DNA of 64,000 nucleotides, taken from contig NZ_OCPC01000006.1 in assembly GCF_900220985.1 (NCBI RefSeq), positions 265,256 through 329,255 on the forward strand, written 5' to 3'. Origin of the DNA: Parahoeflea halophila (lineage in GTDB: Bacteria; Pseudomonadota; Alphaproteobacteria; Rhizobiales; Rhizobiaceae). This document shows positions 1,754 to 22,989 of the stretch, piece by piece (the first letter of the stretch is position 1; the number at the start of each line of letters is the position of its first letter). The notes beneath the pieces are model-generated. The model ran no database searches and was not told where the DNA came from. It saw only the letters and a list, made by a program, of their open reading frames with translations. Both the position numbers and the translations under genes were made by a program.

Positions 1754-1829
1754 GAGAGCGTAGCTCAGCTGGTAGAGCAACTGACTTTTAATCAGTAGGT
1801 CCAGGGTTCGAACCCCTGCGCTCTCACCA
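1754..1829 (+). tRNA. tRNA-Lys (anticodon TTT)
   Basis: A 76-nt cloverleaf. The acceptor stem GAGAGCG pairs with CGCTCTC, followed by A and an encoded CCA. The D-arm contains AGCTCAGCTGGTAGAGC, the anticodon loop CTTTTAA has TTT at 1787-1789, and the T-arm has GGTTCGAACCCC. The gene is intact although an element is integrated in it: the 45 bp from the anticodon loop to the CCA end also occur at the far end of the element. The 3' half in use is therefore the copy brought by the element. Confidence 0.97.
1785..1829 (+). repeat. attL core (45-bp direct repeat, copy 1)
   Basis: Identical over 45 bp to 22945-22989. It starts at the anticodon loop (CTTTTAATC...) and ends at the CCA. The bases on both sides differ between copies, which defines the limits. 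It lies inside the functional tRNA gene. Confidence 0.95.
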
Positions 1830-3255: not shown

Positions 3256-3885
3256 ATGCCCATGATTCAATGCAGTGACGGAACTCACCTAGAAGCTGGC
3301 GAGGACGAATATGTGCAATTTCGAGATTGGCTGGCAGTAGATTCCGATCTTGCTCAGCGAATTTCAGAACTATTCTGGTTGGACATGTTTGTTGGTTACA
3401 AACGTTCGTCACTCGATTGTCGATCTGTGTTGGAGACGGTCAAGAACCTTGAAAAAGGTGAGCCGAAAAACGGCGTAAGACCAGCTTCAGAATTCACACG
3501 TCCGCCTTTGAAAGGTCTTTGGCATAAGCACCATTACTCCGGTCCATATCTACCAATGAACGTTGCGAATAATCTCCCAGACGAAATGCTTAAAGAGTTG
3601 GTCGAGAACCTAAAAACAGAGGACATTTCGCCAGAAGAGCAGAACAGAAGATGTCTAGGCGAAGCGATGAAACTTGTGAAGCACTCTCTTGCGGACCGAA
3701 GCGCTGATCAAAGGTTGACCGGGGAGTGGATAATCTTCGCAAAATCAGATGCAGGAAATTTGTACCTTTCTCTCGGCTACCACAAAATTGGACGCCCCGC
3801 GAAGGGCAGAGATGAATTCTTGATTGGAAGAATTAGAGAACACTGCGTGAATGAATTTCCTAATATACTCAGACTTAAAGAGTAA
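3256..3885 (+). CDS. Hypothetical cargo protein on the plus strand
   Basis: A 209-aa protein transcribed opposite to the rest of the element, with clearly lower GC than the neighbouring phage genes, both signs of a separately acquired moron. No family is recognised. Visible features are a tryptophan-rich segment (RISELFWLDMF), basic and acidic alternation, and a C-terminus (TGEWIIFAKSDAGNLYLSLGYH) that reads as a beta hairpin followed by helix. There is no signal peptide or membrane helix, so a cytoplasmic protein is expected. ATG 3256 is used; a second ATG two codons later is possible because the ribosome-binding site is weak. Confidence 0.65.
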   Translation: MPMIQCSDGTHLEAGEDEYVQFRDWLAVDSDLAQRISELFWLDMFVGYKRSSLDCRSVLETVKNLEKGEPKNGVRPASEFTRPPLKGLWHKHHYSGPYLPMNVANNLPDEMLKELVENLKTEDISPEEQNRRCLGEAMKLVKHSLADRSADQRLTGEWIIFAKSDAGNLYLSLGYHKIGRPAKGRDEFLIGRIREHCVNEFPNILRLKE

Positions 3886-4467: not shown

Positions 4468-4656
4468 CTATTGCGCTTCGCCGCCAACACCAATGTCCAG
4501 TTTTCCAGCGTCCAGCTTTTCGAATATCTGTCGCACCGCCGTTTCGCTGCGCTCAGACACCGATTTTCGTCTCCGGTCAGGAAGCAAAAAATCAAGCATT
4601 TCATACGACATCTCATGCTTACTTTCTTTATAGAAATCTTCCATGGCTTCACTCAT
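4468..4656 (-). CDS. Small acidic protein, third gene of the Ntn-hydrolase operon
   Basis: A 62-aa charged, helical protein with an acidic N-terminal half and a basic RRRK segment in the middle; not recognised. Its ATG overlaps the stop of the proteasome-like gene in an ATGA arrangement, a strong sign of translational coupling and co-expression. It could be a regulator, adaptor or substrate of the hydrolase, or an antidote, but nothing in the sequence decides between these. Confidence 0.6.
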   Translation of the reverse strand: MSEAMEDFYKESKHEMSYEMLDFLLPDRRRKSVSERSETAVRQIFEKLDAGKLDIGVGGEAQ

Positions 4657-5906
4657 GTCGATGAACCTCCGTACTTTCTTGTGCGCCTCGAATTGAAATC
4701 CTGATTAATCTCTAAATCAAAATAATGCTTGCGTTTAATCCAAACAAAACCATCAGATTTTGAAATTACGGCTACATCCACCGGGCCGCCGACCGACTCG
4801 ATCTTTGAATCTATTTTCCTACGAAGAGAGGTAATTTCCACCAATGCTTCAGCCATAGCCGCCATCTCTTCCTTCGGCAGAGATGAAACGACCCTCAACA
4901 TCGGTTTTATCACCTCTTCAATGCGCATTTTCTTAAATTCGTCCATTAGCCCCTTGACTAGAACTTTGTTGTCTGACTCTTGCCTTGCGCGCTCAACCAT
5001 TCGATCTTTTTCCTGAACGTATTCATCGACAATCCTTTTACTTTTCTCATTCAATATGCCCAAGGTTGTGCCGTGTATAAAATCCAAGTAGTCCAATTGC
5101 ATACCCTCCATGAACAGGTACGCAATGTCTGACTGCGCAAATGGAATAACAACAGAAGCCTTATTTTCCTCTTTGTTGAGATTATGAGTACTCGTTACCC
5201 ACGACCTGACATCTTGCCCATATTTTCCATCAACTACTATCTCCTCAAGGCTAGGAAAAATCTCTTTGTCGCCGTAGCCTGCAAAGACAACCCCTGTCTC
5301 GAATGATGAAATGTACTGACGCCTAGATCTCTCGTAGCATAATGTAATCATCTTTGAATGCATGGTTGAGGTCACATGTATTTTTGCAAGCTCCACCATG
5401 AATGATTTAATCATTTTTGAGTACAATCTAGCAAAGGCATCCCTACCATATTTGTCATTAATTATTGGCAGGTCCTTGGCATTTTCAATTTGTAATTCTA
5501 CTGAATCCAGAAAAGATTTTCTTTTCTTTAGTCCTCCTGAGATGGTATCTATATGCTCGCAGCAGTCTACAATACTATTAACAAAGCATGTCATTAAGTT
5601 GAGGTTATTTAGATTTTTGCTAGGTCCAGAAAAATCAGATAAAAAATCGACAAAATCCTCCCTGAGTTCATAAAGGTAGTCAAATATTCTTTCTCTAATT
5701 TTTGCTCTATAAGCCTTAATTACAATTTCCCACGGTACGCCGCAGTAATCTCCCGAATTCCATATCATTATTCCGACATCATTGTTTATTGAAACAGAAA
5801 ATAATTTATTGGTATTCTTCCATACGCGCTCTTTTCCGACAGTGACTGCGCTATCAGCAGCCAGTGCAACGGCTGAACGGGTAAGGATGGCGATTTCCGC
5901 GGTCAT
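4653..5906 (-). CDS. Proteasome/HslV-like Ntn hydrolase with long C-terminal extension
   Basis: 417 aa. The start follows a GGGAAG Shine-Dalgarno and makes Thr the second residue. Numbering from that Thr after Met removal, Thr1, Asp17 (in LAADSAVT) and Lys33 (in NTNKLFSV) fall exactly at the catalytic positions of proteasome beta subunits and HslV. A glycine-containing strand (VGIMIWNSGDY) follows, as in that fold. The remaining ~370 residues are far longer than HslV (about 175) and mostly helical. They include a charged coiled-coil-like stretch near residues 285-330 and a C-terminal VDVAVISKSDGFVWIKRK motif. Predicted activity is threonine-type amide or peptide hydrolysis. It is AT-rich compared with the phage core, sits after the tape-measure gene, and is flanked by tiny co-directional genes. 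Biological role unknown. Confidence 0.75.
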   Translation of the reverse strand: MTAEIAILTRSAVALAADSAVTVGKERVWKNTNKLFSVSINNDVGIMIWNSGDYCGVPWEIVIKAYRAKIRERIFDYLYELREDFVDFLSDFSGPSKNLNNLNLMTCFVNSIVDCCEHIDTISGGLKKRKSFLDSVELQIENAKDLPIINDKYGRDAFARLYSKMIKSFMVELAKIHVTSTMHSKMITLCYERSRRQYISSFETGVVFAGYGDKEIFPSLEEIVVDGKYGQDVRSWVTSTHNLNKEENKASVVIPFAQSDIAYLFMEGMQLDYLDFIHGTTLGILNEKSKRIVDEYVQEKDRMVERARQESDNKVLVKGLMDEFKKMRIEEVIKPMLRVVSSLPKEEMAAMAEALVEITSLRRKIDSKIESVGGPVDVAVISKSDGFVWIKRKHYFDLEINQDFNSRRTRKYGGSST

Positions 5907-5917
5907 TTTCTTCCCAG

Positions 5918-6034
5918 TCAGCGGCGGCTGCTCGGCGGGGACCATGTCACGTTGAGCTTGTAGTAAGCTTCAGCGAAAAGATACCCCTTTGATTCCGCCG
6001 CTTCTCCCTTGTTGCGCCTATAATAATCCACCAT
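5918..6034 (-). CDS. 38-aa ORF preceding the proteasome-like gene
   Basis: A short ORF (MVDYYRRNKGE...) with a GGAG ribosome-binding site about 11 nt upstream. It ends 11 bp before the start of the proteasome-like gene, close enough for coupled translation. It is tyrosine-rich and basic at the N-terminus with a proline/serine/arginine tail. It could be a genuine small partner or a leader peptide. Statistical support is weak at this length; the support is position and ribosome-binding site. Confidence 0.45.
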   Translation of the reverse strand: MVDYYRRNKGEAAESKGYLFAEAYYKLNVTWSPPSSRR

Positions 6035-6092
6035 TCGTTGATTCTTCTCCGTATGGCAATTCTCCTACGCTTAGCCCAATCACCACCAATGG

Positions 6093-6116
6093 GGGGCGAG
6101 GCACAAGCCCCGCCCC
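6093..6116 (-). terminator. GC-rich hairpin after the tape-measure gene
   Basis: Minus-strand GGGGCGGGGC-TTGT-GCCTCGCCCC, a 10-bp stem with one G-U pair, 9 bp past the tape-measure stop. No T-tract follows, so it may act as an mRNA 3'-end stabiliser or weak terminator separating the structural operon from the cargo operon. Confidence 0.5.
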
Positions 6117-6124
6117 TTCCCGGA

Positions 6125-8350
6125 TCAATCCGACCCTAGTTCTTGAACGCCTGTATCCCCGGCGCGGGCAACGCCCGACGCGCTGGTCTTGCTGCCGGTC
6201 ACTTGCCCGCCGCTCACGCGGACGCTGGTATCCACCCTGACGATGCCGCCCTTGCTGAGTGCCGCCTCGATGCTGGCAGCCCGCGCGTCAATGCTCGCGG
6301 CAATCGCGGTCATTGCCGCCTCAGCGCCAGACGGGCCGCTGGCAACCGGCGCTGTCGGCTGCGCCACGACCGCCGCTGCCGTTGCCGGTGCGGGAATGCC
6401 GCCATTGATCGCGGGAAGGTCAGCCGCCGGGATCGTCGGCGCGATGCTCGCCGCCGCCTTCGCCTCCGGTGCCGCCGCATTGGCAGCATCGGCATTCAGC
6501 CAATCATCGAGCGCCGCCGGGCGCGCCCATGCCGGGATCAATTCAGCAACGGCTTTCAGGTTGGCGACAACTTCACCCATGATGGCGTCAAAGATGCCGC
6601 CGAACAGGTTGGCGAACCAATCCTTGATGCCGGTGAAGGCCGCCTTGACACCCTCGACAATATTGGTGCCGAGTTCGGTTGCCTTGGCAATCACGCCATC
6701 CAGCACTTCCGGCGGGACAATCATCGTGACCAGATCGTAAGCCCAATCGCCAAGCGCCTCAGCGGCCTTGCTGGCGATACTGCCGACTTCGGCGGCGATC
6801 TGCCCGGCAAAGTCCGAAACCGCGCTCACGGCGCTGGAAAAGCCGCTGGTGATGCTATGCCAAATGCTCGCAAAGAAGTCGCTAATCGGACCCCGCCGCC
6901 GGATGATCGCTCCCGCACCGATGGCGAGAAGCGCGACACCCGTGACGATGGCGGCAATCGGGGCTGCCGCTGCCGCCGCTGCGGTGCCGACCGCTGCCAG
7001 TGCTGCGCCGATACCGCCTGCGCTGGACAGCATGGCAAAGCCGACCATAGCGCCACGGAGCGCCACGCCGACACGGGCTGCTACCGGTGCCAGTACGGCG
7101 AAGCCGGTGGTAACGGTGCGGGTTGCGGCAGCGATACCGCTGAGAGCAAAGCCGACCGGGGATAGCGCCGCCACACCGAGGACTGCGAAAGCTGACCACT
7201 GCCTTTGGCCCTCGGAAAGTCCATTGAAGAAGTCGGCAGCGCGACCCGTCAACTCGGCGAACTTCTCGATTGCGGGTGTGAAGGCTTCCGCCAAACTTGC
7301 GCCCGCTGCCCTCACGGAATTGATGGAGTTGGTCAACCGCTGAGACATGGTTGCGTTGACCGATGCAACCTCCTTGTCGATGCTACCAGCCGCGCCGCCT
7401 TCGCGGAGTTTCTTCTCCCGCTCGGCAACCTTCTCAAGATCATTGAGGACGGCAAGATGCGCGGCGACACCCTCTTTGCCGAACAGTTGCGTCAGGGTGG
7501 TTTGCTGCAACTCCTTCGGGAGTTCCGCAACCTTTTTCAGCACCTCCATATATGTCCGGTCGCCATCGACCATCATGGCCTTTTGCACCTTTTCAGCGTC
7601 AAGGCCGAGTTGCCTGTATGCGGCAATCTGCGATTTGGTCGCCGTCTGTCCCGCTTGCAAAGCAAGGGTCGCATTTTTCAGCGCGGTTGCGGCGACTTCC
7701 GGTTCGACCGCGACCGTCATCTGAGTGTTGATCGCCGTCAGGGCGGTGGTGTCGAAGTTCGCACCCTTGCTGTATGCCGCCGCGCGGGCGTTGGCTTCGA
7801 TCACGCGGGCCGCTGTGGTGGCCTCTGCATCTGCGGCATAGTTCACCTCGTCAGCGTACCGTTGCACTTCCGCAATCGTCAGGCCATAGGCTGAGCGGAT
7901 TTTGGCGAGGGAGTTCGCGCTTTCCTCTGCGCTCATATCCATTGCAGTCGCGGTCTTGGCGGCAAGCACGGTGAACGGCAGCGCGTCAACTGCATCGACA
8001 CCGCTGGTCAGGGCTTGCGAGTAGATCGCGCTGAGGGTGCCAAGGTCTTTGCCTGTCGCTTGGATTTCCTTCCGCAACTCGGCTTGCCCGGCGCGGGCTT
8101 CATCGTATCCGAGTTTTTTGATGGCTCCAGCGAGATTTTTTTCATATGTGATGAGATCACGAGATGCGGCGACGATTGTGCCCGCTGCGGCGGCGCTTGC
8201 GGCTGCTGTCTTGTGAGCAAACCGGGCGGCCCCGGTTTCAAAGCGGGCAAGCGTGCCATGAAGGCCGCTGGCGCTTTGCGCGACGGATCGGAAGGCCGCT
8301 AAGGTGCTATCCGTCGCCGTCAATTTAATTGCTGCGGTGAATTTTGTCAT
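6125..8350 (-). CDS. Phage tail tape-measure protein (TP901-like)
   Basis: 741 aa. The N-terminal half is a long helical segment with the ...NAGQTATKSQIAAYRQLGLDAEKV... style of the TP901 tape-measure core and a conserved LPKELQQTTLTQLFGKEGV stretch near residue 285. The middle (about 385-490) holds several hydrophobic helices, and the C-terminal part is alanine/proline-rich. Tape-measure proteins set tail length and line the tail tube; at about 1.5 angstrom per residue this would give a tail near 110 nm. It is the only clear tail gene in the element: no tube, chaperone, baseplate or fibre genes flank it, which is unusual. Confidence 0.88.
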   Translation of the reverse strand: MTKFTAAIKLTATDSTLAAFRSVAQSASGLHGTLARFETGAARFAHKTAAASAAAAGTIVAASRDLITYEKNLAGAIKKLGYDEARAGQAELRKEIQATGKDLGTLSAIYSQALTSGVDAVDALPFTVLAAKTATAMDMSAEESANSLAKIRSAYGLTIAEVQRYADEVNYAADAEATTAARVIEANARAAAYSKGANFDTTALTAINTQMTVAVEPEVAATALKNATLALQAGQTATKSQIAAYRQLGLDAEKVQKAMMVDGDRTYMEVLKKVAELPKELQQTTLTQLFGKEGVAAHLAVLNDLEKVAEREKKLREGGAAGSIDKEVASVNATMSQRLTNSINSVRAAGASLAEAFTPAIEKFAELTGRAADFFNGLSEGQRQWSAFAVLGVAALSPVGFALSGIAAATRTVTTGFAVLAPVAARVGVALRGAMVGFAMLSSAGGIGAALAAVGTAAAAAAAPIAAIVTGVALLAIGAGAIIRRRGPISDFFASIWHSITSGFSSAVSAVSDFAGQIAAEVGSIASKAAEALGDWAYDLVTMIVPPEVLDGVIAKATELGTNIVEGVKAAFTGIKDWFANLFGGIFDAIMGEVVANLKAVAELIPAWARPAALDDWLNADAANAAAPEAKAAASIAPTIPAADLPAINGGIPAPATAAAVVAQPTAPVASGPSGAEAAMTAIAASIDARAASIEAALSKGGIVRVDTSVRVSGGQVTGSKTSASGVARAGDTGVQELGSD

Positions 8351-21550: not shown

Positions 21551-22771
21551 CTATCCCACGATCCGCCCAAGTTCAGCCGCCCATGCGTCCAGCGCCGCGC
21601 GCTTTTGCTCAATGTAATCGGCCCGGTTATAGACGCCAGCAACGCCAGCCTTTGCGCCTGATACGTGATTGAGGATCGCCTCCACGATATGCGGCTGCAC
21701 TCCGATTTCGTTCATCCGGGTTGCGGCGGTGCGGCGGAGATCGTGCGGCGTCCATCTGTCGGCAACGCCCCGGCCCTCTTGCCATTTGCGGATTGTATTG
21801 CTGATTGTGTCATTGCCGATATGGGCGCGCTTCTCACCGCCATCCGTAGGGAATAGGTGATCGCCGTTGGTGGCAGCCATCGCCTCGCGGACAATCGCCA
21901 AGGCTGGCGCGGACAGCGGCACAATGTTCGGCTTTCCATTCTTCGCGCGCTCACGCGGCAACGCCCAGATTGCGGCAGTGGTGTCTATCTCGTCGCGCAT
22001 CAGGCCCGCAACCTCATTTGACCGCTGACCCGTCAACACTATCAAGCGATAGATCGCCACGAGGCGCGGCCCTGCCGTCCAATTTGGAAACTCATTCCAC
22101 AACGCGCTGATTTCAGCATTGGTCAGGACACGCTCGCGGTTCTCCATTGGCGTTGCATTCGGGTTGCGGCGCGGCAGCGGGTTGGCCTCAATATACCCCA
22201 TGTCAGCACCCCAATTCAGGACTACCTTGAGGTAGCGGAAGATCGCCTCACCCATGCGCTGCGCACCTGAATTGATCTTCGCCTCGACCGGCTTTTGCAG
22301 GGTGCGCCGTGATAGCTCACTGAGCGGCGTCTCACCAATCAAAGACAACACGTCCTTGCGCATGGTGCGCTCAATGTCACGCCGGTTGCTGGCGCTTGTG
22401 CTTTTGAATTTTGAGCTTTGCAGGTACGCCTCGACCAGCTTGGCAAACGTGTCGGCGCGGGCCTCGTTGGCGGCTACAGTTTCGGCGCGGCGGCTATCGA
22501 GCGGATCAGCGCCCTCACCTATGTCTGCGCGCAACCTCGCCGCCTCAGTCCGCGCCTTGGCAAGCCCTACCCCCGGATACGCGCCGATCTTGTAGCGCTT
22601 GCGTTTGCCATCCTTCGGGCCGGTGTAATTCAAGAACCAAGCTTTCGAGCCTGACTTGCCGACCATGATGCTAAGCCCCTTGTGGCCCGGCGCGGCGTCG
22701 AAATATTCGATCTGCTTCGGCTGAGGCTGCACACTGGCAAGCCATCTGTCGCTAATTTTCTGCATTGGCAT
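21551..22771 (-). CDS. int: Tyrosine integrase (P4-type, DUF4102 N-terminus)
   Basis: 406 aa. The N-terminal arm-binding domain contains APGHKGLSIMVGKSGSKAWFLNY and RKRYKIGAYPGVGLAKARTEA, typical of P4/CP4 integrases. The catalytic domain has LTGQRSNEVAGL (Arg I), HDLRRTAATRM (HxxR) and the nucleophile region VAGVYNRADY. It recombines attP with the tRNA-Lys 3' end. ATG 22771 is used; TTG at 22807 would extend it through a CAATGCACG motif. Its N-terminus faces attR, so int lies at the end away from the restored tRNA. The motifs upstream suggest autoregulation by integrase binding. Confidence 0.93.
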   Translation of the reverse strand: MPMQKISDRWLASVQPQPKQIEYFDAAPGHKGLSIMVGKSGSKAWFLNYTGPKDGKRKRYKIGAYPGVGLAKARTEAARLRADIGEGADPLDSRRAETVAANEARADTFAKLVEAYLQSSKFKSTSASNRRDIERTMRKDVLSLIGETPLSELSRRTLQKPVEAKINSGAQRMGEAIFRYLKVVLNWGADMGYIEANPLPRRNPNATPMENRERVLTNAEISALWNEFPNWTAGPRLVAIYRLIVLTGQRSNEVAGLMRDEIDTTAAIWALPRERAKNGKPNIVPLSAPALAIVREAMAATNGDHLFPTDGGEKRAHIGNDTISNTIRKWQEGRGVADRWTPHDLRRTAATRMNEIGVQPHIVEAILNHVSGAKAGVAGVYNRADYIEQKRAALDAWAAELGRIVG

Positions 22772-22787
22772 GGCGGGGGTTAGTCTC

Positions 22788-22813
22788 CGTGCATTGGGTC
22801 CTCTCAATGCACG
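22788..22813. promoter_or_regulatory. Inverted pair of CAATGCACG motifs, putative integrase arm sites
   Basis: CGTGCATTG at 22788-22796 and CAATGCACG at 22805-22813, the same 9-mer found four times inside the left end. They lie between the integrase start and attR, overlapping the probable int promoter. Confidence 0.6.
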
Positions 22814-22944: not shown

Positions 22945-22989
22945 CTTTTAATCAGTAGGTCCAGGGTTCGAACCCCTGCGCTCTCACCA
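22945..22989 (+). repeat. attR core (45-bp direct repeat, copy 2)
   Basis: Perfect copy of 1785-1829, the tRNA-Lys 3' half displaced by integration. The upstream bases (AAATTTT) do not continue the tRNA, so this copy is not a functional gene. Confidence 0.95.

Follow-up and report, generated by a model that had tools for sequence, protein, structure and literature searches.

Introduction

In 2021 a survey by Fuchs, Alva and Lupas added 22 homologues to the proteasome family (PMC8665760), and the parts of that paper drawn on here give neither their function nor their context. Within the survey, PMI-4 (Proteasome homologue with Multiple Insertions 4; representative HDY66466.1) comprises 501 sequences at 90% filtering, from many bacterial phyla and from phages, and in the same parts its genomic context is reported as not suggestive, with no AAA+ partner that co-occurs with it. 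PMI-4 is the only PMI class marked there in phages (PMI-3, with the same insertions, is not so marked), and AAH, PPH, CPH and DAH are marked in phages as well, the first three forming the compact group I. The survey drew new homologues from non-significant matches too (PMC8665760). Here we describe a proteasome-like hydrolase with an N-terminal Thr, encoded together with a small downstream gene in an integrated element of Parahoeflea halophila, within a 64,000-nucleotide (nt) stretch of contig NZ_OCPC01000006.1 that was analysed whole and is called the window below.

In the open-access literature, to which our search was confined, no functional study of this hydrolase family was found. Three papers that cite the survey came up in it (PMC13022661, PMC10936438 and PMC10154401), and in the available portions of the first two the matches were confined to the reference lists. 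The proteasome family has published members without a known role, and a PMI-4-like cluster can now be tested through three handles: a mature N-terminus that is precisely placed, a small partner that accompanies most phage-borne copies, and a position in a prophage slot occupied in another strain by a gene of proven defence function.

Results

The hydrolase gene (4653..5906, minus strand, 417 amino acids) opens as Met-Thr-Ala-Glu at the ATG start codon 5906-5904 and closes at 4653. A sequence-only reading that preceded this analysis had proposed that a start at 5906 gives Met-Thr and that Thr1, Asp17 and Lys33 then match the catalytic numbering of proteasome beta and HslV; all of this was confirmed in the sequence, with the three codons at 5901..5903, 5853..5855 and 5805..5807. 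An alternative in-frame ATG lies 13 codons upstream, at 5945. Across 97 loci (including L001 and L007, which are the window gene or an identical copy, and some others that are near copies), the codon aligned to Met1 was a start codon without exception (ATG in 84, TTG in 10, GTG in 3) and the next residue was Thr; no other in-frame upstream start existed in 73 of the 97. The start codon followed by Thr was also present in 19 of 19 further loci, a set that excludes the own-genome copy and partial matches, and in which two of the E. coli (Escherichia coli) entries belong to types already counted and L118 looks like L127. By aligned position, Thr1, Asp17, Ser18 and the Lys33 equivalent never varied among 84 distinct proteins. 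The earlier reading had named variation in the Thr, Asp or Lys, or an upstream start, as signs that would speak against it, and these comparisons gave neither. Asp stood at position 17 in 84 of 84, and since the Lys was at 33 in 21 proteins and at 34-40 in the other 63, the exact position 33 is, as judged from the alignment, not required.

Because methionine aminopeptidase removes a Met that precedes Thr, the hydrolase should be made without a propeptide and Thr1 should be freed as the nucleophile. In the copy of E. coli strain Res13-Sevr-PER07-33 (locus L113), the conserved Met-Thr start is at 5886, but the annotated gene (5787-7190) begins 99 nt ahead of it. Automated annotation can thus place the start too early and hide the N-terminal Thr, which may be part of the reason why the family escaped notice.

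The AlphaFold2 model of the 417-residue protein (predicted local distance difference test score, pLDDT, 89.7) contains a full proteasome-beta fold plus two helical insertions, and the model of a divergent relative also supports the proteasome fold. The structural alignment starts at model residue 2, which matches proteasome residue 1. Insertion boundaries were judged by eye from the secondary structure of the predicted model. Insertion 1 (5322..5618, minus strand) is a helical region at residues ~97-195, with helices at 97-195 ahead of strand S5, which begins at 204, and its last helix may be H2. Insertion 2 (4881..5012, minus strand) is a long helix at residues ~299-342 between H3 and H4, flanked by helices at 271-296 and 345-366. 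The sequence-only reading had described ~370 mostly helical residues absent from HslV; a helical excess does exist, but it consists of the two insertions, and proteasome strands and helices resume past residue ~200 of the model. Profile searches, which that reading had proposed with the Pfam family PF00227, gave a divided answer. The Pfam scan of the hydrolase contained no proteasome model among matches up to E 1, whereas a profile built from the family found archaeal proteasome beta among sequences from the PDB at a whole-sequence E-value of 2e-4, the aligned stretches lying at either end of the fold and each being weak by itself (independent E-values, i-E, of 6.8 and 0.36). Scans of the hydrolase and of the 62- and 38-residue products of the open reading frames (ORFs) on either side of it against Pfam, NCBIfam and PADLOC returned nothing meaningful. 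On the evidence of the models, the proteasome-beta fold of the hydrolase is near certain, and we hold the combination of fold and N-terminal Thr with very high confidence. The earlier assignment to proteasome-like N-terminal nucleophile (Ntn) hydrolases, for which a non-Ntn fold would have been the contrary sign, agrees with the predicted fold.

In PHROGs v4 the hydrolase is a full-length member of phrog_5990 (E 7e-86), a family annotated as of unknown function. By tblastn, relatives were present in 13 of 50,697 phage records and 10 of 72,556 plasmid records (one plasmid match being a 90-residue fragment), with Streptococcus satellites and phages, Providencia, Stenotrophomonas, Porphyromonas, Rhizobium, Mesorhizobium, Ruegeria, Pantoea and Enterococcus as the carriers; altogether, the elements that carry relatives are prophages, satellite phages and plasmids, and their hosts belong to Bacillota, Bacteroidota and Proteobacteria. 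Scanning viral contigs with a pattern yielded 173 loci, 80 of which were retained. Family members occurred in 2 of 61 genomes in the relatives search, in 11 of 398 from the phylum of the window and in 14 of 397 from its order, counts that take in its own genome and some partial matches (G206, G229 and G314; G667, G731 and G771). In E. coli, a copy was present in at least 22 of the 5,426 genomes (9 full-length at 99%, 13 through a short 73% match), counted with a DNA query that distant types would escape. The distribution of the family is sporadic. GC content was lower than in the flanks in 54 of 56 loci, the mean difference being -0.097 (58 loci minus two with short flanks). In the window the sequence-only reading had called all three ORFs AT-rich. 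This applies to the hydrolase (40.4% GC) and the 62-residue ORF (47.1%), but hardly to the 38-residue ORF, at 53.8% against 58.2% for the whole element. The best explanation of these sequence comparisons is that the hydrolase and, in most copies, the small gene form a cargo cassette of mobile elements, and the GC drop against the flanks and the sporadic occurrence support the earlier view of the gene as prophage cargo.

The small gene (4468..4656, minus strand, 62 amino acids) is translationally overlapped with the hydrolase, sharing 4 nt (ATGA) with its stop, and the 38-residue ORF (5918..6034, minus strand) stops 11 nt upstream, just as the earlier reading had laid out. That reading had seen two tiny partners, of which only the downstream one recurs in relatives. 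The upstream ORF has none: its one convincing match in 97 loci (L001-L097) and 41 related genomes, its own included, was to itself, and we rejected it as a part of the cassette. In L002 and L003 there is a common upstream frame (within 150 nt) of the type GGRARA...EIAR.AAAARW, which is absent from the window.

When an automated scan looked for an ORF of 38-110 residues starting within 60 nt of the hydrolase stop, 70 of the 84 distinct loci offered one, and 6 of the 14 misses had less than 260 nt of DNA remaining. Among the 70 candidates, 50 were preceded by a ribosome-site motif of at least 4 bases, 26 overlapped the hydrolase and 66 started within 25 nt; when the same stretches were shuffled (1,400 shuffles), some ORF appeared in 33% and a motif-led ORF in 3%. 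We re-examined ten of the misses, that is all except L012, L036, L094 and L097, and found a motif-led ORF of 34-58 residues in L011, L015, L019, L023, L086 and L092. Nine of the 19 further loci likewise had a motif-led small ORF or a copy of a known type. In 23 related pairs, hand-picked and with members shared between pairs, substitutions at codon positions 1, 2 and 3 numbered 408, 321 and 666, a pattern by which the small gene carries a coding signal. The 62-residue product of the window scored 11.6 bits against a profile of the small proteins of three relatives, the best of 2000 shuffles reaching 8.0. An intrinsic terminator followed within 120 nt in 25 of 48 loci and in 0 of 192 windows placed within hydrolase genes, a lenient control since these windows are coding sequence. 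A downstream partner gene with a coding signal and, often, a terminator is a context for the family of which we found no published account.

The 75 distinct small proteins (34-73 residues, 15 of them chosen or corrected by hand) are basic, poor in Cys and fast-diverging. With phmmer at E<0.01 they fell into 12 groups and 26 singletons, with 215 real matches against 2 to decoys, and from these groups a single common homology of all of them cannot be shown. We also modelled a read-through fusion from one relative, with the intervening stop read as Ser, in which the small partner had a pLDDT of 27-58. Some VIA rows aligned the partner helix with the C-terminal part of proteasome beta, at low confidence and in a joined chain; a resemblance to the C-terminal proteasome-beta helix is a lead only, from a predicted model.

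A partner that is small, diverges this fast and, for most of its length in the read-through model, is either disordered or predicted with low confidence could also be a substrate. The hydrolase would then be a connectase-like ligase or a peptide-maturing enzyme that cleaves or joins a defined sequence, and connectase, itself a proteasome homologue, is a specific ligase according to the sections of the survey used here (PMC8665760). We consider this unlikely. Inspection of the phmmer groups by eye gave no motif common to all the small proteins; the small gene was not seen in some relatives; and connectase is described in those sections as lacking H1-H2 and carrying its insertion between S3 and S4, unlike the hydrolase model (PMC8665760).

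The setting of the cassette differed between elements. In two Streptococcus satellites that were viewed, the hydrolase and the small gene were the final two genes, and in Javan85 the hydrolase came after the lysin, at the element end. Other copies lay near holin and lysozyme genes, among head-tail genes (a Porphyromonas phage and the window) or on plasmids. Among 108 immediate neighbours at 58 loci, the repressor-type family phrog_4 was the most frequent with 9, followed by regulators, antiterminators and endolysins. Clustering of 759 neighbouring ORFs from the 58 loci gave phage genes in the 25 largest clusters, with XRE regulators in 6 loci; none of these clusters was unfoldase-like, and the ATPases recognised in them, a replicative helicase and a helicase loader, lay at a distance of over 2.7 kb. 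PADLOC models matched by the 108 neighbours included, among the matches listed (25 of 73 families), RmrA, capH, HTH_VI, MTase_II and mad2. We set these aside as defence evidence, since we could not separate them from the methyltransferases and regulators that phages ordinarily carry.

The immediate neighbours seen most often include families of the repressor type and of antiterminator Q, which would fit a lysogeny regulator, a protease that tunes the repressor or an antirepressor of its own element. The family is, however, also found on plasmids, among phage late genes and at element ends where the stretch fetched has no annotated phage repressor, and we regard such a role as very unlikely. 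A toxin-antitoxin or addiction pair, in which the hydrolase is toxic and the adjacent small gene encodes its inhibitor, would fit the two-gene layout with overlap in 26 of 70 candidates, the presence on mobile elements, the fast-evolving partner and the gene annotated 'putative transcription regulator' in two Streptococcus satellites. Against it, the small gene is second in order and seemingly absent in some relatives, and the idea overlaps with a defence role; on balance we think it distinctly unlikely. In the two satellites concerned (L011, L019), the annotated regulator gene ends 17-21 nt upstream of the hydrolase, and a further protein, which we presume to be RelE/HigB-like from its looks, ends about 300 nt before it.

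Nine plasmid loci were fetched for the ten plasmid matches, one of them without annotated genes. Beside four of the nine (L017, L018, L114 and L020; three syntenic Rhizobium copies and one of Mesorhizobium) lies a multiubiquitin-ThiF (E1-like) operon, and a ClpP gene accompanies the three syntenic copies, the Mesorhizobium copy having another layout. If the hydrolase were the disposal arm of a rhizobial ubiquitin-like pathway, degrading or trimming the conjugates made by this operon, such proximity would be explained. In the syntenic group, however, reverse-strand genes stand between the hydrolase and the operon, no such operon was annotated in the other stretches fetched, and the R. leguminosarum copy is broken. 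This role is highly improbable, and we take the link between the family and multiubiquitin-ThiF on rhizobial plasmids as a lead, not a claim.

In E. coli we could compare the same prophage position between strains. Locus L113, in one of a group of prophages that we take to be Rac-like, reads in order: replication genes, a helix-turn-helix gene (presumed to be the repressor from its position), the hydrolase, a 34-residue ORF preceded by a ribosome site, a hairpin that by eye resembles a terminator, a hypothetical gene, ydaE, recE, recT and the integrase. The slot stretch of L113 was matched by 109 of the 5,426 E. coli genomes, of which 13 contain at least 80% of it and carry the hydrolase cassette. 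In seven other strains that were fetched, the right flank was common to all seven and the left flank to six, at 99-99.8%, and between the shared flanks the cassettes differed from strain to strain (L113, L134-L140), with coiled-coil-like proteins and unknown pairs among their products. Ten proteins were scanned from five of the seven strains, L135 repeating L134 and L140 being left out. In strain H6, two ORFs matched the two halves of BstA (phrog_6287, E 4e-28 and 1e-38), the second also matching the PADLOC BstA model (E 2e-15), so that bstA is split in this strain. The cassette of YZMc10-2 gave a HipA-like kinase match below the Pfam cut-off (E 1e-5), and this protein was also matched by a model for candidate defence genes (E 2e-6). 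Cassettes seem to be exchanged in the stretch that runs from the presumed repressor gene to ydaE-recE, and this apparent swap slot is worth mining for defence genes.

The element that carries the window copy extends from a left attachment site at the 3' end of a tRNA-Lys gene (1785..1829; tRNA-Lys 1754-1829) to a right attachment site (22945..22989), the two forming a 45-bp exact direct repeat, with an integrase gene inside the right end (21551..22807, minus strand; phrog_1, E 1.9e-66). The repeat and the integrase bear out the claim that the locus is prophage-borne. Matches within 1785-22989 were to integrase, primase, helicase, terminase, portal, head-tail adaptor and tape measure; among the ORFs that were scanned (part of the total), none matched a capsid or tail-tip protein, and we read these matches as a degraded prophage or satellite-like element. 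No ATPase gene directly adjoins the hydrolase according to the ORF list and the Pfam and PHROGs scans of the window, as had been noted from the sequence. A second AT-rich gene, of 209 residues, at 3256-3885 (plus strand, GC 45%), with a match to phrog_33791 of unknown annotated function (E 6.7e-13), is a possible further cargo beside the cassette. Upstream of the hydrolase lies the tape measure gene (6125..8350, minus strand; phrog_28, E 3e-50). Since the copies of the window and the Porphyromonas phage lie among structural genes, a virion maturation or tail protease has to be considered. The family is nevertheless present in small satellites, on plasmids and in an early region beside the presumed repressor gene, and was carried by 13 of the 109 E. 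coli genomes that match the slot stretch; we judge a virion function scarcely probable.

Discussion

We give an even chance to the proposal that the gene encodes a self-contained threonine hydrolase, regulated in most copies by the co-encoded small protein and serving superinfection exclusion. Under this proposal the hydrolase would work without a dedicated ATPase, the two helical insertions would limit access to the active site, and the small, basic, fast-evolving partner may act as adaptor or inhibitor. Most speculatively, the hydrolase would be expressed in the lysogen, be released or activated upon superinfection, and then cleave a protein of the phage or of the host, which would make the second phage fail by superinfection exclusion or abortive infection. 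Function is here inferred from location, and the position in some prophages suggests a role against other phages. Superinfection exclusion is supported by location, in that the E. coli cassette occupies a slot behind a presumed repressor gene where another strain carries bstA, and the repressor-type families that head the neighbour tally (phrog_4, 9 of 108) were counted in its favour as well. Genes for superinfection phenotypes are found near the repressor elsewhere, such as sieB in the K-12 Rac prophage and rexAB in lambda. In the available parts of its description, the bstA gene lies downstream of cI in the prophage, and its product mediates abortive infection (PMC8585504). As an argument for the hydrolase, the slot amounts to guilt by location, with one clear case in five.

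Several observations weigh against superinfection exclusion under control of a partner. The defence argument rests on location, and location varies: the sequence-only reading had suggested an anti-phage or superinfection exclusion cargo, which the E. coli slot favours, but the window copy adjoins the tape measure gene and not a repressor, and others lie by lysis genes, in satellites and on plasmids. The hydrolase had no PADLOC match up to E 1. Of the five slot cassettes scanned, three had no clear known function, and YZMc10-2 has the right flank only. Proteasome beta requires ring assembly for activity, which we count on the same side. The partner itself is uneven, 20 of the 70 automated candidates being without a ribosome-site motif and at least one, that of L073, lying in the wrong frame, another frame suiting the relatives better. 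A motif-led small ORF was not found in L020, L025, L037 and L038 (the L025 stretch ends soon after the gene), and ten of the 19 further loci had none or a weak one only. Because several relatives have no motif-led small gene, the partner cannot, on these sequences, be essential everywhere. Finally, no docking of the partner was predicted in the read-through fusion model.

A bolder form of the proposal makes the protein of prophages, satellites and plasmids, in hosts that range from Streptococcus to rhizobia, an ATPase-independent threonine protease that acts as an immune effector and is switched on by its small, fast-evolving partner against superinfecting phages. We offer this form tentatively, as possible rather than probable. 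The partner might in that case supply in trans a helix resembling the C-terminal helix of proteasome beta, or it might be an inhibitor that the invader removes. Should the defence reading hold, bacterial immunity would count the proteasome fold among its effectors; should ligation or maturation be the true role, the family would be a source of new protein-processing enzymes.

Comparison with known systems

The likeness to BstA is one of location only, namely a slot behind the prophage repressor and a terminator after the cassette, and the parts of its description consulted report a KilA-N protein and no Ntn fold (PMC8585504). Anbu chains are about 230-240 residues long. According to the relevant parts of the survey, their coiled-coil element is C-terminal rather than inserted (PMC8665760). 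Connectase appears in the same parts as a proteasome homologue with helical insertions, but as a monomeric ligase without H1/H2 and with a two-helix insertion between S3 and S4 (PMC8665760); the hydrolase model has helices after S4 and none between S3 and S4, and does not qualify as a connectase. With the beta subunit of the 20S proteasome and with HslV the hydrolase has in common the fold, the N-terminal Thr, Asp17 and the Lys, and it differs from both in its two extra helical insertions, the lack of a propeptide and the lack of an adjacent ATPase. HslV is a compact subunit that works with the HslU ATPase, and a protein of 417 residues with two insertions falls outside that definition. The phrog_5990 entry describes the same family as the hydrolase, but without fold or partner. 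Closest is PMI-4, as far as the available parts of the survey describe it: both have a beta core with Thr1, Asp17 and Lys33 and no propeptide; both have a long insertion after H1/H2 and another between H3 and H4, each seen in the hydrolase model; and both are spread widely over bacteria and their phages, here in Streptococcus, Enterococcus, Porphyromonas and proteobacterial phages and plasmids. By architecture and distribution, though not by a sequence match, phrog_5990 probably is PMI-4 or largely overlaps with it.

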